Source: Acidilobus sp. 7A (lineage in GTDB: Archaea; Thermoproteota; Thermoprotei_A; Sulfolobales; Acidilobaceae). From it: a stretch of 64,000 nucleotides of DNA. Shown here in pieces: positions 5,299-32,885 of the stretch. A program made the position numbers and the translations under genes. The notes under the pieces were generated by a model. That model was not told where the DNA came from and made no database searches. It worked only from the letters and a program-made list of their open reading frames with translations. The DNA is taken from contig NZ_CP010515.1 in the NCBI RefSeq assembly GCF_003431325.1, forward strand, positions 124,001 to 188,000. Direction: 5' to 3'. Position 1 is the first letter of the stretch. The number at the start of each line of letters is the position of its first letter.

Positions 5299-7101
5299 TT
5301 GGAGGGGACATTCAGCAGGCTCATAAGGGTCGACCTGAGCTCGGGGGCTGTGCGCTACGACGAGGCAAGGCAGGAGGACGTCAAGGCCTACCTGGGCGGC
5401 AGGGGCCTGGGCCTCCTGCTAGCCTCCAGGAGCGGCTTCAGGAGGGGCGTGGATCCCCTGTCGCCGGACTCGCCACTGATATTCGCCTCAGGCCCCCTGG
5501 CCGGCTCAGGGATGCCCCTCTCCTCAAGGGCCGTGGCAGTGTTCATGTCGCCCCTCGCCAACAGGTGGAGCTACTCAACGGTCGGCGGCTCCCTGGCCGT
5601 CATAATGAGGTACGCCGGGGCCGACGTCCTTATGGTCACCGGCAGGGCCAGCAGGCCCTCCTACATAGTGGTTGAGGGCGGCAGGGCCGAGGTCAGGGAC
5701 GCCTCAGGCCTCTGGGGCATGGGCACCCTCGACGCTGAGAGGGCCCTGAAGGAGGTTCACGGCGACGATTCCGCCGTAGCAGTGATAGGCCCGGCAGGGG
5801 AGAACATGGTGAGGTTCGCGTCGATAAACCACGAGACGTGGAGGCAGTTCGGCAGGGGAGGGGGAGGAGCCGTGATGGGCTCAAAGAACCTCAAGGCGGT
5901 CGTCTTCGTGCCCAGCGGCAGGGCCGTCGAGGCTGCAGACCCAGAGATGACGTGGGCCATGATAAGCGAGATGACGAGGAGGCTGGCCACAGGGGCCAAG
6001 TCGTACAGGGACAACGGCACCCTCGGCACAATAGACGCGGGGAACGGGACTGGCTTCTTCCCCTCGCTCTACTGGACCAGGGTCTCGGCCCCAGGCTGGA
6101 GGAGGATATCTTGGTTTGACGTCCTGAGCAAGTACTACTACACGGGCAAGAGGACCACGTGCCTTCACTGCCCCGTGGCCTGCCACAAGACTGTGGCCTC
6201 CAGGAGGTACGGGGGCTACGTAGAGCTCGAGTACGAGACCACAATGGCCTTGGCTGGGCTCACCGGGGTAGTTGACCCTGACGAGCTGATACAGCTGGCC
6301 CACGTCGTTGACGACATGGGCCTGGACTCCATAACGACAGGGAACGTGCTCGGCCTCCTCGCCTACCTCACCGAGAGGGGGGCCGTCAGCCCAGGGGAGG
6401 GGGTGAGGTTTGGGGACGCGGCCCGCATGAGGGAGCTCATATTCATGATAGCAAAGAGGGAGGGGATAGGCAAGGTCCTCTCCCTGGGGGCCAAGGAGGC
6501 CGCCAAGGAGCTGGGTCACCCTGAGGCCGCGGTAGAGGTCAAGGGCCTCGAGCCGGCGGGCTACGACCCGAGGACGCTCAAGGGCATGGCGCTCAACTAC
6601 GCTGTAGCCGAGAGGGGCGCCGACCACCTGTGGGCAAGCGCCTACGCTGTTGACATACCCGGCCTGGCGGGGGGCAGGCAGGCCACCGGGGAGGAGAAGG
6701 TTAGGGCCGTTATGGACCTGGAGGAGAGGAACGCGGTATATGACAGCGCCGTTCTCTGCAAGTTCGGCAGGAACGCCTACGGCTGGGACGAGCTGGTGAG
6801 GTCCCTTAACGCAGTCACAGGCTTCGACTACACGAAGGAGACACTTAGGCAGGTCGCCCAGAGAATTATCGTGCTGCACAGGCTCATGAACGGCACCACA
6901 GTTGAGGAGGACAGGCTGCCCCCCAGGTGGCTCAGCGAGCCGGTGGAGTTCGAGGGCAAAAGCTACGTCGTCACAGAGGCCGAGTGGAGGTCCATGCTTA
7001 TGACGTACTACAGGCTGAGGGGCTACGACGAGGAGGGCAGGCCCACTAAGGAGACGCTTGAGGCGCTCAGAGTTAGTTTAGTACAGACGGGCCAAGGATA
7101 G
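5299..7101 (+). CDS. aor: Tungsten-containing aldehyde:ferredoxin oxidoreductase
   Basis: A 600-residue AOR-family enzyme that oxidises aldehydes to acids with ferredoxin as acceptor, using a tungsten bis-pyranopterin cofactor and one [4Fe-4S] cluster. Three cluster cysteines form CLHCPVAC at 288, 291 and 295, and the fourth is C487 in VLCKFGRNAYG. The N-terminal GGRGLGLLL and the glycine-rich GRGGGGAVMGSKNLKAV are standard pterin-binding regions. The start is TTG at 5299, 58 nt after the MBL gene, and the length is normal. A dedicated multi-cluster ferredoxin follows after 34 nt, so the two probably act as an AOR-ferredoxin pair in amino-acid or sugar fermentation. Which aldehyde (general, formaldehyde or glyceraldehyde-3-phosphate) cannot be told from sequence. 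Confidence 0.92.
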   Translation: MEGTFSRLIRVDLSSGAVRYDEARQEDVKAYLGGRGLGLLLASRSGFRRGVDPLSPDSPLIFASGPLAGSGMPLSSRAVAVFMSPLANRWSYSTVGGSLAVIMRYAGADVLMVTGRASRPSYIVVEGGRAEVRDASGLWGMGTLDAERALKEVHGDDSAVAVIGPAGENMVRFASINHETWRQFGRGGGGAVMGSKNLKAVVFVPSGRAVEAADPEMTWAMISEMTRRLATGAKSYRDNGTLGTIDAGNGTGFFPSLYWTRVSAPGWRRISWFDVLSKYYYTGKRTTCLHCPVACHKTVASRRYGGYVELEYETTMALAGLTGVVDPDELIQLAHVVDDMGLDSITTGNVLGLLAYLTERGAVSPGEGVRFGDAARMRELIFMIAKREGIGKVLSLGAKEAAKELGHPEAAVEVKGLEPAGYDPRTLKGMALNYAVAERGADHLWASAYAVDIPGLAGGRQATGEEKVRAVMDLEERNAVYDSAVLCKFGRNAYGWDELVRSLNAVTGFDYTKETLRQVAQRIIVLHRLMNGTTVEEDRLPPRWLSEPVEFEGKSYVVTEAEWRSMLMTYYRLRGYDEEGRPTKETLEALRVSLVQTGQG

Positions 7102-7135
7102 CCTAAAATAAGGCCCCTGCCACTGAGGATAGGCG

Positions 7136-7663
7136 GTGCCTGGCTTGAAGCAGCTCATTGCAATTCCTGAGAAGTGCACTGGCTGTGGTAGGTGCGAGCT
7201 CGCCTGCAGCTTCGAGCACTTCAAGGTCTTCGACCCCGAGCTCTCGGCAATTCACGTGCTTAGGCTGGAGAGGGAGCCCCTGGACGCCCCGCTCTTCTGC
7301 ATACAGTGCGGCCTCTGCGCCATGGAGGGGGTATGCCCCCACAACGCCATATACAGGGACCCCAACACGTTCTCGGTCGTAATTGACAGGGCCAGGTGCG
7401 ACGGCTGCGAGAGGTGCGTGGAGGTCTGCCCGTACGGCGTCATAACCATTGACCACGTGGAGAAGAAGGCCATAAAGTGCGACCTGTGCGGCGGCGACCC
7501 AGCGTGCGTCAAGGCGTGCCCTGAGGGCGCCCTGGCCTACGTCGACGTCAACGAGGCGGCCTACTACAAGCGCTACTTCTTCGCGAAGCTGCAGGAGAAG
7601 GCCATGGTGCCCATAGTGCCGTACCCGGCCGAGAGGTCCAGCCAGCTGAACAACAGGGCCTGA
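7136..7663 (+). CDS. Four-cluster [4Fe-4S] ferredoxin, electron partner of AOR
   Basis: A 175-residue HycB/CooF-like polyferredoxin with sixteen cysteines in four groups: CTGCGRCELAC, CIQCGLCAMEGVC, CDGCERCVEVC and CDLCGGDPACVKAC. These can hold four [4Fe-4S] clusters. The GTG start at 7136 lies 34 nt after the AOR stop, so the genes are very likely co-transcribed and the protein takes electrons from AOR. The tail after about residue 145 lacks cysteines. The next gene is convergent. Confidence 0.88.
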   Translation: MPGLKQLIAIPEKCTGCGRCELACSFEHFKVFDPELSAIHVLRLEREPLDAPLFCIQCGLCAMEGVCPHNAIYRDPNTFSVVIDRARCDGCERCVEVCPYGVITIDHVEKKAIKCDLCGGDPACVKACPEGALAYVDVNEAAYYKRYFFAKLQEKAMVPIVPYPAERSSQLNNRA

Positions 7664-7690
7664 AGAAGGGAGCAGCTCACCGGCTTTTGT

Positions 7691-8842
7691 CTAGATGGCC
7701 CTCCCTGGGGGCCTCGGCCGGCCCTCAAGGGTTACCCTTACGGCCTCCGCTGACCTCACGAGCGCCGCGTAGTCGAGGTTCATGGACTTCTCGGCCTCGA
7801 GCACGTCGCTCACAGAGGCCCTGGTGGTGGAGGGGCCCGCGAGGGAGCAGTACTCAGGCACCTTTGCTGAGACGCCATAGGTCCCTATGGACCTCGCGAC
7901 CCTCACTATGTCCTCCTTGTCCATCGCTATCAGCGGCCTCAGTATGGGCAGCTCTATTCCGTGCTCCTCAGCCTCAAGGTTCCACATGGTCTGGGAGGAG
8001 ACCTGCGAGAGCGACTCCCCGGTCGTTATGGAGTGCGCCCCCTCTATGCGAGCTAGGGCCTCGGCGAGCCTGTAGAGGACCCTCTTGAGGGCTATAACCC
8101 TCAGGGGCCTCCTGACCTCGGCCAGGGCCTTCATAACTGGGACCCCGTCTATGAAGTAGACCTTTATGTCGTGGCGGCCCGCCCACGGCCTCAAAAGCTT
8201 AACCTCGCTCAGGACGGCCTCCCTGTGCTCCCTCCCCCCTATTGCAAGGTTCAGAACGACGGGCACGACGCCCCTCCTCATTATCATCCACGTCGCCACG
8301 GGGGAGTCTATGCCGCCTGAGACGAGGGCAACTGTTCTGCCGGCGACCCCGACCGGCAGCCCCCCAGGGCCCGCCTGAAGGGAGGTGTGGACGTAGGCCA
8401 GCCCCCTCTCAACCATGTCAACATACACCGTGACCTCGGGCGACTCAAGGTCCACCCCCGCGGACCCGCCCAGGAGGGCTGCCCCCAGTTCCCTGTTGAC
8501 GTCAAGGCTGGTGAACCTGTCCTCGCTCAGCCTCCTGGCCCTCACGGCAAAGCGCCTCCCCCTGACGTCGTTAGCTGTCAGCTCCGCCGCCCTCCTCACC
8601 AGGTCCCCCAGGTCATCGTACCTGACCTCGCTGGCTACCGCGTAGTGGGCGAGGCCGAAGACCCTTGAGAGGGCGGAGGGGTCGCCGTCAACGTCTAGCA
8701 CGAGGAGGCCCCCGTAGACCCTTGACGACCTGAGCCTCACGGCAGCTGATATGTTAGCTAGCAGCTCCCTGACCATGTGGAACCTCGTCTGCCTGCCCTT
8801 TATGCACAGCTCCCCCGCCAGGGTGGCCACAACCGCCGTCAT
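7691..8842 (-). CDS. thiI: tRNA 4-thiouridine synthetase ThiI
   Basis: ThiI-type tRNA sulfurtransferase that adenylates and thiolates U8 of tRNA. It has an N-terminal ferredoxin-like plus THUMP region (about residues 1-165), the PP-loop SGGIDSPVA, and the downstream TTGESLSQVSSQT stretch characteristic of ThiI. A cysteine in VPEYCSLAG is in the position expected to carry sulfur or ligate a cluster. There is no C-terminal rhodanese domain, as is usual in archaea. I prefer the ATG at 8842 to an upstream ATG at 8878, because the extra twelve residues (GLLPSRSSAQR) look non-homologous and the conserved protein begins near TLAGELCIKGRQTR. It is convergent with the ferredoxin gene. Confidence 0.9.
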   Translation of the reverse strand: MTAVVATLAGELCIKGRQTRFHMVRELLANISAAVRLRSSRVYGGLLVLDVDGDPSALSRVFGLAHYAVASEVRYDDLGDLVRRAAELTANDVRGRRFAVRARRLSEDRFTSLDVNRELGAALLGGSAGVDLESPEVTVYVDMVERGLAYVHTSLQAGPGGLPVGVAGRTVALVSGGIDSPVATWMIMRRGVVPVVLNLAIGGREHREAVLSEVKLLRPWAGRHDIKVYFIDGVPVMKALAEVRRPLRVIALKRVLYRLAEALARIEGAHSITTGESLSQVSSQTMWNLEAEEHGIELPILRPLIAMDKEDIVRVARSIGTYGVSAKVPEYCSLAGPSTTRASVSDVLEAEKSMNLDYAALVRSAEAVRVTLEGRPRPPGRAI

Positions 8843-26445: not shown

Positions 26446-26466
26446 CCTACTTTCAGAAGTTGAAAG

Positions 26467-26477
26467 GTATAAATATT
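26467..26477 (+). promoter_or_regulatory. TATA box of ino1
   Basis: The element gtataaatatt lies 26 nt before the TTG at 26493. Because it falls inside the longest possible reading frame (from 26460), it argues that translation starts at TTG 26493 or GTG 26511 instead. Confidence 0.6.
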
Positions 26478-26492
26478 GGTAAGGTGAACGGC

Positions 26493-27665
26493 TTGGAAGG
26501 GCGCAGACAAGTGGGAATTAGAACCGTACTGATAGGCGCAGGAGGCGGCAGCTCCTACTTCCTGGTGGGCCTCGAGAGGCTTAAGTCAAGGGAGGTACCG
26601 CCTGTCGGCATACCCCTGGCGGGGCTCCTGAGGGCCCACAGGCCTGAAGACATAAACGTTGTCGCTGTCTACGACGTTGATAACTCCAAGGTAGGCAGGG
26701 ACATGTACTCCATAGCCTCCAAGCTTGTGCCGGCCAGCAACATACCGAGGAGCCTTAAGGACATAGTGGTCAGCAGGGGCCTCCACTGCGGCAGCCTCGG
26801 CGGCCTTAACGTAGATGCCACAGGCCTTGAGGACGTCATAGGGAGCCCCGAGAGGGCCTTCGAGGAGTTCGTAAACCAGCTCGCGAAGCTGAGGCCAGAC
26901 GTCATAGTAAACGTGATAACGACAGAGCCCATGAGGTTCGTCGACAGCGAGGGGGAGCTGGTGAGGCTTGCCCCCCAGTGCGCCCTCGGCGCCACCTTGG
27001 CTTACGCCTACGCTGCGGCTGAGTACTCGACCAAGACTGGGAACCCGGTCGCGTTCATAAACCTCACCCCTCCCGCGACTGCTAACAGCCCGGGCGTCGT
27101 GAGCGCCTTTGAGAGGGCCGGGGCCCTGGTTATGGGGGACGACGCCGCAACTGGGGCTACGCCGCTGACGGCTGACCTGCTTGAGCACATGGCTGAGAGG
27201 GGCAGGAGGGTTCTCTCAATAGCGCAGTTCAACATAGGCGGCAACAGCGACTTCCTCAGCCTGACGGAGCCTGAGAGGAACCACTCGAAGGAGGTCACCA
27301 AGAGCAGCATGGTCTCAGACATACTCGGCTACGACGCACCCCACTACATAAAGCCCACTGGCTACCTGGAGCCGCTTGGGGACAGGAAGTTCGTGGCCAT
27401 GCACATAGAGTACGAGTCCTTCGGGGGCTTCAGGGACGAGGTCATAGTGAACGCCAGGATAAACGACAAGTCAAACCTGGCGGGGCTCATGGCCTCAGCA
27501 ATACCTGTGGCCAAGTCGCTGCTGGAGAGGGGAGTGCGCGGAACCTACGCCACGGCCAACAGGTTCTACATGAAGATGCCTGGGCCGAGGGGGAGCAAGA
27601 ACATAAGTAAGATAGTCGCCTACCAGGACCTGCTCAGGGAGCTGAAGAAGCTCGACATTATATAG
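26493..27665 (+). CDS. ino1: Myo-inositol-1-phosphate synthase
   Basis: Converts glucose-6-phosphate to L-myo-inositol-1-phosphate with NAD, the entry step to inositol lipids. The NAD site VLIGAGGGSSYFL is at the N-terminus. Other landmarks are VAVYDVDNSKVGRD, INLTPPATANS, GDDAATGATPLTADLL, FNIGGNSDFLSL, and SKEVTKSSMV with catalytic lysines. At about 391 residues it is of archaeal length. The start is TTG 26493 (or GTG 26511), because a TATA box occupies the region upstream. It pairs with the CDP-alcohol phosphatidyltransferase at 32.3 kb, which matches archaetidylinositol-phosphate synthase. Confidence 0.92.
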   Translation: MEGRRQVGIRTVLIGAGGGSSYFLVGLERLKSREVPPVGIPLAGLLRAHRPEDINVVAVYDVDNSKVGRDMYSIASKLVPASNIPRSLKDIVVSRGLHCGSLGGLNVDATGLEDVIGSPERAFEEFVNQLAKLRPDVIVNVITTEPMRFVDSEGELVRLAPQCALGATLAYAYAAAEYSTKTGNPVAFINLTPPATANSPGVVSAFERAGALVMGDDAATGATPLTADLLEHMAERGRRVLSIAQFNIGGNSDFLSLTEPERNHSKEVTKSSMVSDILGYDAPHYIKPTGYLEPLGDRKFVAMHIEYESFGGFRDEVIVNARINDKSNLAGLMASAIPVAKSLLERGVRGTYATANRFYMKMPGPRGSKNISKIVAYQDLLRELKKLDII

Positions 27666-27758: not shown

Positions 27759-28589
27759 TTGATAGGGATAACGCCGCTGCAGTACGGCCTCTCCGTGGTC
27801 TCGGGCGTGATAGTGGGGTTCTCCCTGGGCCTCATAGGCGGTGGGGGCTCTATACTTGCCGTCCCGCTGCTACTTTACTTAGTGGGCCTTAGCTCAATCC
27901 CCAACGCCGCCCACGTGGCCCTCGGCACTACGGCGCTGGCCGTGGGAATCAACGCTTACATAAACTCCTACATGCACCTGAGGAAGAGGAACGTCGCGCC
28001 AAGGGTCGGGGCGCTGTTCGCCGGCGTCGGCCTCATAGGGGCCCTCCTCGGCACCTACCTGGGCCACATAACCCCTGGCGAGAGCCTCCTTCTTTACTTC
28101 GCCATAGCCATGATAGTCCTGGGCGTCTACATAGGATTCTTCAGGCACGCGGCCTCAGCCGGCTCCAGGGAGGAGGTCGACAGGGTCCTTGAGGCTGTCT
28201 CGAGGTGTCCAAAGCTGACGAGAAGGGTTGCTACCATTGTTGCGGCCTCTGGCTTCTTGGTCGGGCTGATAAGCGGCTACTTCGGCATAGGGGGCGGCTT
28301 CCTCATAGTGCCGGCCCTCATGTTCTCGTCAGGGCTGTGCATAGCTAGGGCCATAGGCACCTCACTGTTAAGCGTGGGCACATTCGGCGTGGCGAGCGGG
28401 CTTGAGTACGCTGTCTACGGCGACACCCTATTTATCATATCGGCCCTTTACGTCGTGGGCGGCGTCGTGGGCGGCTACTTAGGCACGAGCCTCGCCGTAA
28501 AGGCGCCCAAGAAGACCCTCCAGAGGGCCTACGGCATCATAATAGTGCTCGTCGGCATCTACATGATCTTCAAGGTCCTTCACCTGTGA
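27759..28589 (+). CDS. TauE/SafE-family sulfite/sulfonate exporter
   Basis: A 276-residue membrane protein with about eight helices in two repeats. Each repeat carries the family's glycine-rich turn: GLIGGGGSILAVPLLL near residue 25 and GYFGIGGGFLIVPALM near 180. The family moves sulfur oxyanions or organosulfur acids across the membrane. The TTG start is set by a strong AGGAGGTG site. The gene stands alone, downstream of ino1 with its own AT-rich promoter region. Confidence 0.85.
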   Translation: MIGITPLQYGLSVVSGVIVGFSLGLIGGGGSILAVPLLLYLVGLSSIPNAAHVALGTTALAVGINAYINSYMHLRKRNVAPRVGALFAGVGLIGALLGTYLGHITPGESLLLYFAIAMIVLGVYIGFFRHAASAGSREEVDRVLEAVSRCPKLTRRVATIVAASGFLVGLISGYFGIGGGFLIVPALMFSSGLCIARAIGTSLLSVGTFGVASGLEYAVYGDTLFIISALYVVGGVVGGYLGTSLAVKAPKKTLQRAYGIIIVLVGIYMIFKVLHL

Positions 28590-28637
28590 AGCCGTTTATT
28601 TTGCCCTTAGCCCTCCTTCTTTATCGGGCGAACAGCC

Positions 28638-29396
28638 TTGGCTGAGGGCGAGAGGTACGTAGTCGTAACCGGCGGCGACAGGGGCATCGGGAGGGCCACC
28701 GTGCTGAGGTTTGCAAGGGCTGGCTTCAACGTGGTCTTCACTTATAGAAGCAGTGCCGAGGCCGCCCAGAGGACCGCGGAGGACGCCAGGAAGGCGGGCG
28801 CCCCCAAGGCTCTCTTCTACCAGGCTGACGTCTCCAGCTGGGACTCCGTCTCCTCCCTGACAAAGGCCATTGAGGCTGAGGTGCCCTACGTTAACGTCCT
28901 GGTCAACAACGCCGGCATAATAGACTACAGCGACTTGGAGTCCCTGACGCCGGAGAGGTGGAGGGAGGTCATAGACGTCGACCTGACGGGCCCCTTCCTC
29001 GTCACCAAGGCCCTCCTGGGCCTGCTGAGGAGGGCAAGCTGGGCCTCCATTGTTAACCTGGCAAGCATAGCTGGGCAGACGGGCAACGTGCTGGCCAGCG
29101 TGGCCTACTGCTCGGCCAAGGCGGGCGTCATAGAGCTTACCAAGAGGCTCGCCGTGGAGCTGGCTAAGTACGGCATAAGGGTCAACGCCGTTGCCCCGAG
29201 CTTCGTGGAGACTGACATGGTCGCTGACATACTTAGTGACGAGAGGAGGAGACGCGAGGTGGAGGCCATGCACCCGCTGGGCAGGATAATTAAGCCTGAG
29301 GAGGTGGCAGAGGCCATATACTTCCTGGCAGACCCTGCGCTCTCGCTCAACATAACTGGGCAGGTCATAGGCATTAACGGCGGCAGGTACACGTGA
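28638..29396 (+). CDS. Short-chain dehydrogenase/reductase
   Basis: A 252-residue classical SDR. The cofactor motif TGGDRGIGRAT, NNAG and the catalytic YCSAK (with upstream Ser in VNLASIAG) are all present. It looks FabG-like, so a 3-oxoacyl or sugar keto group is possible. TTG start at 28638. A TATA-like gtttatttt (28595-28603) lies about 35 nt upstream. The lipid/glycan gene run starts 67 nt downstream with a separate promoter. Confidence 0.88.
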   Translation: MAEGERYVVVTGGDRGIGRATVLRFARAGFNVVFTYRSSAEAAQRTAEDARKAGAPKALFYQADVSSWDSVSSLTKAIEAEVPYVNVLVNNAGIIDYSDLESLTPERWREVIDVDLTGPFLVTKALLGLLRRASWASIVNLASIAGQTGNVLASVAYCSAKAGVIELTKRLAVELAKYGIRVNAVAPSFVETDMVADILSDERRRREVEAMHPLGRIIKPEEVAEAIYFLADPALSLNITGQVIGINGGRYT

Positions 29397-29414: not shown

Positions 29415-29441
29415 CTAGCGGTTTTAATTCAGGTCCGCTAG
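29415..29441 (+). promoter_or_regulatory. TATA box inside an inverted repeat
   Basis: Perfect 7-bp arms ctagcgg (29415-29421) and ccgctag (29435-29441) flank ttttaattcaggt, which contains the TATA-like ttttaatt about 35 nt before the TTG at 29464. A dimeric repressor binding here would block TBP/TFB access. Confidence 0.5.
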
Positions 29442-29463
29442 TCAATGGGCGGAGAGCGGCGTC

Positions 29464-30303
29464 TTGATAGACCTGTCGCTGAGCTCCCTCGCAGCTGACC
29501 TGAAGGAGGTTGGCTACGCCGTACTCTTGGGGTCCATCATTAACGTCGGCCTGACGCTCCTCTGGGCCGTCAGGTGGACTCTGGGCCTCCGTCACCTTGG
29601 CATCGGGGCCTCCTACACTAAGGTCCTGGTGGCAATCACTTCCAGCTTCCCCATAGGCAACCTTTTGCCCGCTGGCAAGGCGGCCCAGGAGGCCTTCAGG
29701 ATAGCGTACCTTGAAATAGGCGACGGCAGGAGGCCCTCAGTCATGGCGGCCGTGACCATGGAGTGGGCCTCGGAGGGGCTCATACTTGCCGCCCTCCTAA
29801 CCTCTGTCATAGTTAGGCACTACCTCTGGGGCGCCCTAACCCTGGCAGCCCTTGGCGCCTCGGCCTCCCAGAGCGTTGCCGAGAGGGCTAAGTCCGCCGT
29901 CGCCGACCTGCTGGGGAGCATAAGGGCGCTTGCCAGGGACAGGAAGCTCATGGCACTCTACATGAGCGTAAGCGCTATCATAATAGCAGCTGACGTGGCC
30001 AAGGTGTGGCTGCTGGCTAACCTGAACGGGATATCCTTGGGCCTCTTCGACCTCCTTATACTTTATGTTGTCATGAGGGTGACGTCGGTCGCCCCAACCC
30101 CGGCCGCCCTGGGCTTCCTGGATGTCAGCGTGATAGGCGCCCTAGAGCTCATGGGGTATTCGACGGCGAGCGCGGCCCTCTTCCTGCTCTCGCTGAGGTT
30201 TGTTGACACTGTGGTGCCCAGCCTCGTTGGACTCCTTGTGCTGGCGGCCAGCGGGGGCTGGCGCGTCGTGAGGCAGCTGAGGGGATCAGCTTGGAGACGC
30301 TGA
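29464..30303 (+). CDS. Flippase-like lysylphosphatidylglycerol-synthase-TM protein
   Basis: A 279-residue polytopic protein of the UPF0104/lysylphosphatidylglycerol-synthase transmembrane family (related to AglD C-terminal domains). The loop SFPIGNLLPAGKAAQEAFRI matches the family's conserved N-LPA-G-E-R pattern. The soluble catalytic domain of bacterial MprF is absent, so it may act as a lipid or glycolipid flippase. It starts with TTG at 29464 and overlaps the glycosyltransferase gene by 13 nt, which suggests it works on that enzyme's product. Confidence 0.75.
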   Translation: MIDLSLSSLAADLKEVGYAVLLGSIINVGLTLLWAVRWTLGLRHLGIGASYTKVLVAITSSFPIGNLLPAGKAAQEAFRIAYLEIGDGRRPSVMAAVTMEWASEGLILAALLTSVIVRHYLWGALTLAALGASASQSVAERAKSAVADLLGSIRALARDRKLMALYMSVSAIIIAADVAKVWLLANLNGISLGLFDLLILYVVMRVTSVAPTPAALGFLDVSVIGALELMGYSTASAALFLLSLRFVDTVVPSLVGLLVLAASGGWRVVRQLRGSAWRR

Positions 30304-31583
30304 GGGTTGTGATGGTGAGCGACTGGTTCCCTCCAAGGGTTGGAGGCGTTGAAACAAGCGTAGAGGAGCTCTCGAGGGCCCTGTCAGCCATGGGCCACGA
30401 AGTCATAGTGGTGACTCACCAGAACAGGGCAAGGCCCTACCCTCCCACGCTTGAGTCAAGGGACGGCTACTACGTCTACTGGGACAGGTCAAGGCTGAAC
30501 GCCAGGGACGAGGTTACCGTTGACCCTCTGACTGTCGCCAGGGCGGCCCTCTTCGTGAAGAAGAACGCCGCTGACGTTGTTCACTCGCACGGCCTCTCAT
30601 CAATACTGAGCTTTATGACAGCGATAGTAGCGAGCGGCGGCACAGGAGCCCCCTCTGTGCTCACAAATCACTCCCTCGTTGATGACTCCCTCGGCTGGCT
30701 CACCAGGAGGCTGCTGAGGTACGCCCTGAAGTGGCCCACGAGGCTCGTGGGCGTCTCAAGGGCCGCTGCCGAGGACGTCTCAAGGATAAGCGGCAGGCCC
30801 GCCTCGGTTGTGCACAACTGCATAGACGTGAGGAGGTGGAGGTCCCTGGCGGGTGGCCAGAGGCTCGACGGCGACCCAGCGATAGTTATAACCTCGAGGC
30901 TCTCGCCGAGGAAGAATCCACTCGAGATAGCCGCTGTGGTCTCGCTGGTCACGAGGGAGCTGCCGAGGGCCAAGTTCTACGTGGTAGGAGACGGCCTCCT
31001 GAGGGAGGGGCTGAGGGAGGCCGCCAGGGCGAGGGGGGTTGAGAACAACATAGTCATGATGGGCACTATTCCCAGGGAGAGGGTGGCCTCGGTGCTGTCA
31101 GGCGCTGACGCCTTCGCCTTAACCAGCTACAGGGAGTCCTTCGGCCTGGCCGTGCTGGAGGCCATGGCCCTTGGCGTGACGCCAATAGTGTACAGGAGCC
31201 CTGGTGTCCTTGACCTTGTGGAGGGCGGCGTGAGCGGGCTGATAGTTGACGGCCCCGAGGGCATGGCTAAGGCCATAGTTGAGCTCTACTATAACGAGAC
31301 CCTTCGCTCGAGGCTGTCATCAGCCGCTGCGGAGAGGGCCGAGTCCTTCGACTGCAGCCTTATAGCTAGGAGGTACCTTGACGAGTACAGGGCTGCGGAG
31401 GAGGGGAAGTGCAGGGACGACAGGAGGTTCCTGGTCTACAAGGCCTTCAGGCTTCTCACGGGAGACCCCGTGAGGCCCTGCGAGTGGTCCAGGGATAGGA
31501 AGTGGAGGTACCATGAGCGCGCCAAGGAGGGCATTGTTCCTGTCATCAGACGTGGAGCAGGACGCCCCTCCCTACCTCAGTAG
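30291..31583 (+). CDS. GT4 glycosyltransferase, PIG-A-like
   Basis: A 430-residue GT-B fold glycosyltransferase of family 4. The N-terminal VVMVSDWFPPRVGGVETSVE, the loop DVVHSHGLSS and VLTNHSL resemble PIG-A, the subunit that adds GlcNAc to phosphatidylinositol in GPI synthesis. The donor-site region reads SRLSPRKNPLEIA, VGDGLLREGL and the ESFGLAVLEAMALG EX7E motif. About 65 extra C-terminal residues, basic and Trp-rich, follow the fold. The TTG start is inside the end of the flippase-like gene; the last 71 nt overlap the deacetylase gene. The acceptor is inferred to be an inositol ether lipid. Confidence 0.82.
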   Translation: METLRVVMVSDWFPPRVGGVETSVEELSRALSAMGHEVIVVTHQNRARPYPPTLESRDGYYVYWDRSRLNARDEVTVDPLTVARAALFVKKNAADVVHSHGLSSILSFMTAIVASGGTGAPSVLTNHSLVDDSLGWLTRRLLRYALKWPTRLVGVSRAAAEDVSRISGRPASVVHNCIDVRRWRSLAGGQRLDGDPAIVITSRLSPRKNPLEIAAVVSLVTRELPRAKFYVVGDGLLREGLREAARARGVENNIVMMGTIPRERVASVLSGADAFALTSYRESFGLAVLEAMALGVTPIVYRSPGVLDLVEGGVSGLIVDGPEGMAKAIVELYYNETLRSRLSSAAAERAESFDCSLIARRYLDEYRAAEEGKCRDDRRFLVYKAFRLLTGDPVRPCEWSRDRKWRYHERAKEGIVPVIRRGAGRPSLPQ

Positions 31584-32253
31584 CGAGAGGGGGCTGCTCG
31601 AGGGCCTGCCCAGGCTCCTTGACCTGCTCGACGAGCTGCGAGTAAGAGCCACGTTCTTCGTGGTTGGCAGGGTCGCGGAGAGGCACCCGCGCCTTGTCTA
31701 CAGCATAGTTGAGGGGGGTCACGAGCTGGGGAGCCACAGCTACACCCACTCAAGGCTCGACAGGATGCCGCTCAGGGAGGCCGAGGGGGAGGTGATGACG
31801 TCGCTCAAGGTCCTCAGGGACTTCTACGACGTCAGGTCCTTCAGGGCCCCTAACCTGAGGCTGCCAAGGGCGCTCCTGCCCGTGCTCAGGGATGAGGGCG
31901 TTGACGTTGACTCCAGCCTGGCGGCCTACAAACCCCCCTTCGCCCTGGGCCCAAGGGTTGAGGAGGGCGTTGTCAGGGTGCCAGCTACTGTGACCAGCAG
32001 CGTCCTGAGGCTCCCGTGGCCGCTCCTCAGGCCAGCGGCTATGGTTATGCCCAGGGTTGCCACGCTATTCATACACCCCTGGGAGGTCTCTGGGGTGAGA
32101 CACCTGAGGCCCGACATAAGCTTAGGCACTGGGCCGAGGGTACTTGACCCCCTCGCCAGGCTCGTAAACTACATGAGGGGCAGGGGCTACGAGCCGCTGA
32201 CTATGCGCGAGGCTCCAAGGTTGCTGGGCATCGGCAAGGTCCTGGACAGCTGA
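31513..32253 (+). CDS. NodB-family polysaccharide deacetylase
   Basis: A 246-residue carbohydrate esterase family 4 protein that removes N-acetyl groups from amino sugars. The catalytic SSDVEQD (aspartates), the metal motif GHELGSHSYTHSRL and SFRAPNLRLP are present, and the last histidine sits in ATLFIHPWE. The ATG at 31513 is set by GGAGGT at 31504-31509 inside the glycosyltransferase gene, so the 71-nt overlap is real. There is no signal peptide, so it acts in the cytoplasm, consistent with de-N-acetylating a GlcNAc-lipid made by the upstream enzyme rather than a wall polymer. Confidence 0.85.
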   Translation: MSAPRRALFLSSDVEQDAPPYLSSERGLLEGLPRLLDLLDELRVRATFFVVGRVAERHPRLVYSIVEGGHELGSHSYTHSRLDRMPLREAEGEVMTSLKVLRDFYDVRSFRAPNLRLPRALLPVLRDEGVDVDSSLAAYKPPFALGPRVEEGVVRVPATVTSSVLRLPWPLLRPAAMVMPRVATLFIHPWEVSGVRHLRPDISLGTGPRVLDPLARLVNYMRGRGYEPLTMREAPRLLGIGKVLDS

Positions 32254-32256
32254 CCA

Positions 32257-32271
32257 TATTACATATAAAAC
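32257..32271 (+). promoter_or_regulatory. TATA box of the phosphatidyltransferase gene
   Basis: The sequence atattacatataaaa lies about 30 nt before the TTG at 32301 and immediately after the deacetylase stop. The last gene of the run can therefore be transcribed separately. Confidence 0.55.
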
Positions 32272-32300
32272 GCGAAGGTCAGGGCAGAGGGGGCAAGGCC

Positions 32301-32885
32301 TTGGTGCTGGGCAGGCTGAGGAGGCTGGTCAACGAGGTCGCGCCGTCAACTATAGGCAGGGCCCTCCACAGGGCAGGGGTCACCCCTAACGAGATAACCT
32401 ACGCGGGCCTCGCGCTCTCGGCCCTCGCCCCCCTGGTCGTGTGGCTCAGGGCCCTCTACCTCCTGCCGGTCATCATACTGCTGGCTGGTCTCATGGATGT
32501 ACTTGACGGGGCCGTGGCCAGGGCGGCGAACAGGACGACGCCCTTCGGCTCCTACCTTGACTCCGTGACCGACAGGGTCAGCGACGTCCTCCTCTTCCTT
32601 GCAATGGCCATGGCCGGGGTCAACCAGTATATAACTATGGTGGCCCTCGCCTTCTCCCTCATAGTGAGCTACTCTAGGGCAAAGGGGGAGCTGCTCAACG
32701 TTAAGATGGAGGGGATCGGCGTGGCCGAGAGGGGCGACCGCCTCATAATTCTCTTCATAATGTCAATACTCCTGCTCTTCAGGCTCAGGCTCGTCAACGA
32801 TGCCCTCATGGCACTGATAGCAACGCTTGCGGCCGTCACCGTTGTTCAGAGGTCACTTCGCGTCAGCCGCGCCCTTGCAAAGTGA
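32301..32885 (+). CDS. CDP-alcohol phosphatidyltransferase, archaetidylinositol-phosphate synthase type
   Basis: A 194-residue integral membrane enzyme with the perfect family motif DxxDGxxAR(8)GxxxDxxxD (about residues 73-98, DVLDGAVAR to YLDSVTD). It joins a CDP-activated ether lipid with a polar alcohol. GVAERGDRL and the small size resemble archaeal archaetidylinositol-phosphate synthase and PgsA-like enzymes. With ino1 5 kb upstream, inositol-1-phosphate is the best-guess acceptor, but glycerol-phosphate cannot be excluded. The 3' end overlaps the convergent DUF72 gene by 33 nt. Confidence 0.83.
   Translation: MVLGRLRRLVNEVAPSTIGRALHRAGVTPNEITYAGLALSALAPLVVWLRALYLLPVIILLAGLMDVLDGAVARAANRTTPFGSYLDSVTDRVSDVLLFLAMAMAGVNQYITMVALAFSLIVSYSRAKGELLNVKMEGIGVAERGDRLIILFIMSILLLFRLRLVNDALMALIATLAAVTVVQRSLRVSRALAK

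Follow-up and report, generated by a model that had tools for sequence, protein, structure and literature searches.

The closest described systems to the locus reported here are two bacterial operons. In gpgSDF, a GT4 enzyme makes N-acetylglucosaminyl (GlcNAc)-phosphatidylglycerol, a deacetylase makes the glucosaminyl (GlcN) lipid and a COG0392 flippase follows, and a deacetylase mutant piles up the acetylated lipid (PMC12713373). The hexSDF operon of Clostridioides difficile makes an aminohexosyl membrane lipid, and its flippase is dispensable for synthesis (PMC10128005). According to a 2008 survey of putative PIG-A proteins in archaea, Methanosarcina barkeri has an ether phospholipid with a glycosylphosphatidylinositol (GPI) head group (PMC2446393, citing Nishihara et al. 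1992); a putative PIG-A is named there in Aeropyrum pernix, M. barkeri and M. acetivorans, no archaeal activity is demonstrated, and the text mentions neither PIG-L nor a deacetylase and gives no partner genes (PMC2446393). Here we describe three adjacent genes for a flippase, a GT4 glycosyltransferase and a CE4 deacetylase (the trio) in a 64,000-nucleotide stretch (the window) of Acidilobus sp. 7A, whose genome is a single contig of 1.54 Mb. We consider it fairly likely that the trio converts archaetidylinositol to GlcNAc- and then GlcN-archaetidylinositol and flips it. Its probable product, glucosaminyl-archaetidylinositol, is an archaeal lipid bearing the head group of the GPI core.

Four plus-strand genes, all as called by the first-pass annotation of the window, occupy positions 29464-32885 (flippase, GT4, deacetylase and a CDP-alcohol transferase, CDP being cytidine diphosphate), and ino1 lies upstream at 26460, as that annotation had said. 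The features are:

26460..27665, plus strand: ino1, inositol-1-phosphate synthase, for inositol phosphate supply (PF01658, E=3.5e-28; TIGR03450, 88.7 bits)
27759-28589: TauE-type exporter (TauE/SafE-type), upstream of the trio
28638-29396: short-chain dehydrogenase (SDR), upstream of the trio
29464..30303, plus strand: flippase-like membrane protein of the AglD2/YbhN/MprF-flippase type, 279 amino acids (PF03706, E=1e-17)
30291..31583, plus strand: GT4 retaining glycosyltransferase, predicted GlcNAc-archaetidylinositol synthase, 430 amino acids (PF00534/PF13439)
31513..32253, plus strand: CE4 (NodB-type) de-N-acetylase, cytoplasmic, predicted GlcNAc-archaetidylinositol deacetylase, 246 amino acids (PF01522, E=4e-18)
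32301..32885, plus strand: CDP-alcohol phosphatidyltransferase of the archaetidylinositol phosphate synthase (AIPS) type, 194 amino acids (NF040950)

The reported overlaps were found as well, flippase/GT4 by 13 nt and GT4/deacetylase by 71 nt. The start that had been placed at 29415 is not one in the flippase frame, where the earliest in-frame start is a TTG at 29464; the protein scores 41.1 bits against TIGR00374 (cut-off 43.2).

The trio is a real cassette, far beyond chance, with the same genes in the same order at 21/21 crenarchaeal loci and at 25/26 of the loci read in a second phylum. In a class sample of 147 genomes, a full-length deacetylase ortholog was found in 21, each with flippase and GT4, besides two divergent copies lacking both. 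The order flippase-GT4-deacetylase, usually with overlaps, held in 21/21 (the window and L033-L052; L and G numbers are our handles for loci and genomes), spanning 8 genera and 3 families. Among 398 sampled Thermoproteota genomes a strong deacetylase occurred in Acidilobaceae (f1) and family f3 only, and the denser class sample added family f11 as a carrier. The flanking genes vary between genera, giving several unrelated neighbourhoods, and the neighbours tested by profile were housekeeping or unknown genes (NucS, a PCNA-like protein, an M28 peptidase and an Fe-S oxidoreductase). Since the same three genes stay together amid differing neighbours, the trio travels as a unit and needs nothing else nearby.

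The second phylum is that of Methanosarcina, whose genomes were reached by a 16S probe scan. Here the GT4 profile marks a single GT4 in each genome, scoring 288-337 bits (runner-up at most 224), and deacetylase orthologs were taken as those above 190 bits, other CE4 proteins falling below 90. An ortholog was detected in 22 of the 31 Methanosarcina genomes, which include Methanosarcina sp. Ant1 (G148), and all 21 of the 22 whose flanks were read have flippase-GT4-deacetylase in the same order. Phylum-wide, 25 genomes carry the trio, 21 of them Methanosarcina and the rest three further Methanosarcinaceae (L135-L137) and G723 (L205), while G865 (L206) has GT4 and deacetylase only. Three of these trio genomes we take to be M. 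barkeri MS, M. acetivorans C2A and M. thermophila TM-1. When the window proteins are compared with those of the putative M. barkeri MS, identity is 43% over 237 amino acids for the deacetylase and 29% for GT4, and the flippases align in short pieces only. The GT4-deacetylase linkage, on which the first-pass annotation had made its proposal depend, is conserved across the two phyla, and one cassette in two separated lineages suggests that it may have been transferred as a unit. Elsewhere in the genus, flippase-GT4 is kept and the deacetylase lost at L117 8708-10351 (Methanosarcina sp. DH2) and L140 8733-9863 (G174), the remnant being its first 33-47 residues, the part overlapping GT4. At L181 ~7031-7750 (G150), a Methanosarcina metagenome-assembled genome and one of the 21 whose flanks were read, the trio deacetylase is broken by a stop; this copy may be a pseudogene, or the assembly may be wrong here.

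The deacetylase belongs to the CE4 superfamily by profile match (PF01522, 66 bits against a cut-off of 23.1), motifs and fold. It carries DVExDxPP, H75/H79 (HxxxH), RAPN, DSS and HPWE, and the catalytic motifs are kept in 45-48 of 48 trio deacetylases; DVExDxPP, RAPN and HPWE are nearly restricted to this family, other archaeal CE4 proteins having DVExDxPP in 0/29 and HPWE in 2/29. Its AlphaFold model shows a CE4 fold (predicted local distance difference test score, pLDDT, 93.5) with the first strand at residue 6, and the structural matches are CE4 structures, ArnD among them. The trio deacetylase has no signal peptide, transmembrane segment or hydrophobic N-terminus, which bears out the earlier description of a NodB-type enzyme without a signal peptide. 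In the tree, all 48 trio members from both phyla fall into one group, which also takes in two divergent homologs from Acidilobaceae (100/97). Other CE4 genes of the sampled genomes were rejected as family members on bimodal scores (213-373 bits for the trio, no more than 156 for the rest). The two divergent, fast-evolving homologs (L053 7284-7976, G006; L054 2947-3618, G104; 148-156 bits) stand without GT4 or flippase and are possibly repurposed copies. At L055 6454-7815 (G138), a different CE4 deacetylase adjoins a second AIPS-like transferase with no trio GT4 or flippase.

These features bear on whether the deacetylase is a partner of the other two proteins at all. CE4 enzymes commonly act on polysaccharides, and some Methanosarcina keep flippase-GT4 without a deacetylase, as expected if GT4 and flippase cooperated while the deacetylase handled a different GlcNAc polymer, soluble or extracellular. 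We regard this as highly improbable, given the missing signal peptide and transmembrane segment, the place that the gene keeps next to that of GT4 in both phyla, and the DVExDxPP and HPWE motifs that other archaeal CE4 proteins nearly lack. As for PIG-L, the trio deacetylase matches PF01522 only and has no PF02585 (PIG-L, CE14) domain, and no PIG-L (PF02585) was found in the five Acidilobus/g12 genomes tested (G000, the window genome, and G050, G048, G009 and G039). The enzyme being a CE4 protein and not PIG-L, the deacetylation step would have been reached by an unrelated enzyme.

The GT4 protein has an EX7E motif at E282/E290 and invariant residues H98, H127, R203 and K208, and the closest solved structures to its AlphaFold model (pLDDT 90.8) are BshA, MshA and PimA. 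BshA and MshA are GlcNAc transferases, and PimA acts on phosphatidylinositol. GT4 enzymes keep the alpha configuration, and this retaining chemistry is consistent with an alpha-GlcN product. The relaxed PIG-A motifs of Oswal et al., CM1a, CM2b and CM5d plus the CM4 core, all occur in the window GT4, and the PIG-A-like peptides quoted in the first-pass annotation fit them; motif peptides are DWFPPRVGGV, GHEVIVVTHQN and GAPSVLTNHSL. Of 48 trio-family GT4 proteins, 33 have CM1a and 22 have CM5d, and neither motif occurs in any of 29 other archaeal GT4 proteins. In the tree of GT4 proteins, the trio sequences from the two phyla lie on one side (93/88) with two long-branch entries inside, apart from the other archaeal GT4 proteins sampled, as the annotation's phylogenetic check required; the split between the two phyla is supported at just 67-68%.

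The likeness to PIG-A holds for the archaeal-type motifs and fails for membership of the Pfam PIGA family (PF08288), where the window GT4 scores 16.6 bits (18.8 in the genome search) and the ortholog from the putative M. barkeri genome 18.0, against a gathering score of 27. None of the strict eukaryotic motifs CM1, CM6, CM8, CM10 and CM11 is found in the window GT4, any trio GT4 or the other archaeal GT4 proteins compared. A true PIG-A is ruled out by the cut-off and the missing strict motifs. The window protein also lies below the cut-offs for GpgS (NF053787, 41.9 bits; 480), BshA (TIGR03999, 94.8; 273.7) and MshA (TIGR03449, 64; 462.5). That trio GT4 and eukaryotic PIG-A descend from a common inositol-lipid GlcNAc transferase, so that the glycosylation would not be convergent and only the deacetylase was replaced, appears quite unlikely to us; if true, the first GPI step would derive from an archaeal lipid pathway.

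A different substrate class was also weighed, in which the substrate of the trio is a sugar linked to polyprenyl phosphate and destined for a surface polysaccharide or N-glycan, with ArnD-like deacylation before flipping. The deacetylase has ArnD among its structural matches, glycan building is frequent among GT4 enzymes, and PF03706/AglD2-type flippases are, by family annotation and established knowledge, tied to dolichol-sugar export. However, the neighbourhoods examined held no recognisable glycan polymerase, oligosaccharyltransferase or extra glycosyltransferase beside the trio, the GT4 does not resemble Agl16 (72.9 bits; cut-off 575), and polyprenyl-phosphate sugars are, as is well established, made by GT2 or PNPT enzymes and not by the GT4 class, leaving this reading very doubtful.

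Motif-bearing GT4 genes also occur in the genome that we take to be A. pernix (G024; L119 8662-9840) and at L118 8013-9188, where CM1a, CM2b and CM5d are present with no neighbouring flippase or deacetylase. Orthology of the Aeropyrum protein to the trio GT4 is not supported, since it shares the motifs but branches away from the trio members in the tree, and G024 has no strong deacetylase ortholog. The known lipids of A. pernix are glucosyl- and plain archaetidylinositol (PMC9878630). The lack of a deacetylase is consistent with the glucosyl lipid, for which the Aeropyrum GT4 is a candidate glucosyltransferase.

The acceptor is where the Acidilobus arrangement matters. Three Acidilobus genomes (window, L033 and L038) share LSM-ino1-TauE-SDR-flippase-GT4-deacetylase-AIPS, and L103 (G051, presumably Caldisphaera lagunensis) has LSM-ino1-TauE-dehydrogenase-SDR-AIPS without the trio, so the Acidilobus trio sits within an inositol-lipid cluster that exists independently. 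The TauE/SafE-type exporter and short-chain dehydrogenase are kept between ino1 and AIPS in both arrangements (window 27759-29396; L103 9114-11840). The AIPS protein scores 173.8 bits against NF040950 (cut-off 180), the model that fits it best, and its ortholog in G050, presumably Acidilobus saccharovorans, passes at 182.6; a glycerol-phosphate enzyme was rejected, TIGR00560 giving just 33 bits, and the best PDB matches are phosphatidylinositol-phosphate synthases. The phosphatidyltransferase appears to be of the inositol-phosphate type, as the first-pass annotation had assumed. AIPS is present in 144/147 class genomes, and being near-universal it marks the core inositol lipid as general and the trio as an accessory modifier. 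The four-gene linkage that the annotation expected stands for flippase-GT4-deacetylase, and the proposed four-gene operon across Crenarchaeota is ruled out, the inositol synthase and ino1 being joined in Acidilobus only. Because the placement in Acidilobus reflects a single event in a single genus, it gives no more than moderate evidence.

In the pathway that we favour, ino1, AIPS and a phosphatase would make archaetidylinositol, GT4 would transfer GlcNAc from uridine diphosphate (UDP)-GlcNAc onto its inositol, the cytoplasmic CE4 enzyme would strip the acetyl group to give glucosaminyl-archaetidylinositol, and the PF03706 protein would move this to the outer face. Here we infer donor, acceptor, step order and flipping, the acceptor being suggested by where the trio sits in Acidilobus, by the motifs of PIG-A type and by the co-occurrence in Methanosarcina. 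The presence of the trio in that genus, together with the GPI-head-group lipid of M. barkeri, supports glucosaminyl-archaetidylinositol as the product. Were the trio instead to make an aminosugar lipid on archaetidylglycerol or glycosyl-archaeol, its linkage to AIPS in Acidilobus would be incidental. Such an acceptor would agree with gpgSDF and hexSDF, which act on non-inositol acceptors (PMC12713373, PMC10128005), with the lack of adjoining inositol-lipid genes outside Acidilobus, and with the near-universal AIPS, which makes co-occurrence uninformative. We judge it unlikely in view of the PIG-A-type motifs in the acceptor domain of GT4, the insertion of the trio between ino1 and AIPS, and the occurrence of the trio in most Methanosarcina, the genus of the described inositol-linked GPI-like lipid (PMC2446393).

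Several observations weigh against archaetidylinositol modification by the trio. Linkage to ino1 and AIPS is seen in three genomes of Acidilobus only, and even in the window AIPS may have its own promoter and be transcribed separately, the 47-nt gap after the deacetylase holding a TATA-like acatataaaa (~32261-32270, ~31 nt ahead of the AIPS start); in G050 and G048, also Acidilobus, the two genes overlap or lie just 6 nt apart. Conservation of the flippase is weak (20-25% identity outside Acidilobus), and turning over a tetraether that spans the membrane poses a mechanical problem, so that the flippase would have to take diether precursors as its substrate. Three Methanosarcina genomes have GT4 without a deacetylase ortholog: G149 and G174 retain flippase-GT4 with short deacetylase remnants at the overlap, and G197 has GT4 and no strong deacetylase. 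PIG-L is also present in some Methanosarcina. Thermococcus kodakarensis has hexosamine-phosphatidylinositol lipids on archaeol ([M+H]+ 1056.77) and glycerol dialkyl glycerol tetraether (m/z 1705.41) (PMC3906577). A literature search on the lipids of Acidilobus and Pyrodictium yielded nothing useful, and no polar-lipid head-group data or biochemistry for Acidilobus came to light. The GPI-like pathway first proposed for the window gains from the cassette, the motifs and the inositol-type transferase, and loses the four-gene linkage beyond Acidilobus.

Set beside known systems, the predicted pathway resembles eukaryotic GPI initiation in placing GlcNAc on an inositol phospholipid, in cytosolic de-N-acetylation and translocation, and in common GT4 motifs, but it has no PIG-L homolog, an ether acceptor and no other transferase-complex subunit in the cluster. 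MshA/MshB and BshA/BshB, which likewise pair a GT4 GlcNAc transferase with a de-N-acetylase and include the closest folds to the window GT4, act on soluble acceptors (inositol phosphate, malate) with PIG-L-type deacetylases, as is established. The glucosaminyl-archaetidylinositol of M. barkeri matches the predicted product, but it is a lipid structure and not a gene system, and no description of its enzymes was found in the papers searched. The trio would be the first strong candidate for these 1992-lipid enzymes, covering all three modification steps of the GPI-core lipid, and does so in a methanogen genus, Methanosarcina, that is genetically tractable. If the proposal is true, it would also be a clear example of an unrelated enzyme family carrying out the deacetylation step of GPI synthesis, and operons that add GlcNAc, deacetylate and flip an aminolipid would occur in archaea as well as bacteria. 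Of the bacterial operons, gpgSDF of Pseudomonas aeruginosa shares with the trio, as we read the latter, a single operon, a GT4 GlcNAc transferase acting on a phospholipid, a cytoplasmic deacetylase, a COG0392 flippase and a glucosaminyl phospholipid product, whereas its acceptor is phosphatidylglycerol on ester lipids, its deacetylase is COG3233 (DUF2334 type) and not PF01522, and its gene order differs. The hexSDF operon likewise combines a glycosyltransferase, a polysaccharide deacetylase and an MprF-like flippase, but uses a hexosyl-diradylglycerol acceptor and a transferase annotated as monogalactosyldiacylglycerol synthase. Like both, the trio has glycosyltransferase, CE4-like deacetylase and PF03706/COG0392 flippase genes side by side, and with these precedents its three activities can be read as the same kind of pathway acting on archaetidylinositol. 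By this analogy, the trio would be an archaeal member of the glycosyltransferase/deacetylase/flippase pathways, resembling the first GPI steps without PIG-A or PIG-L.

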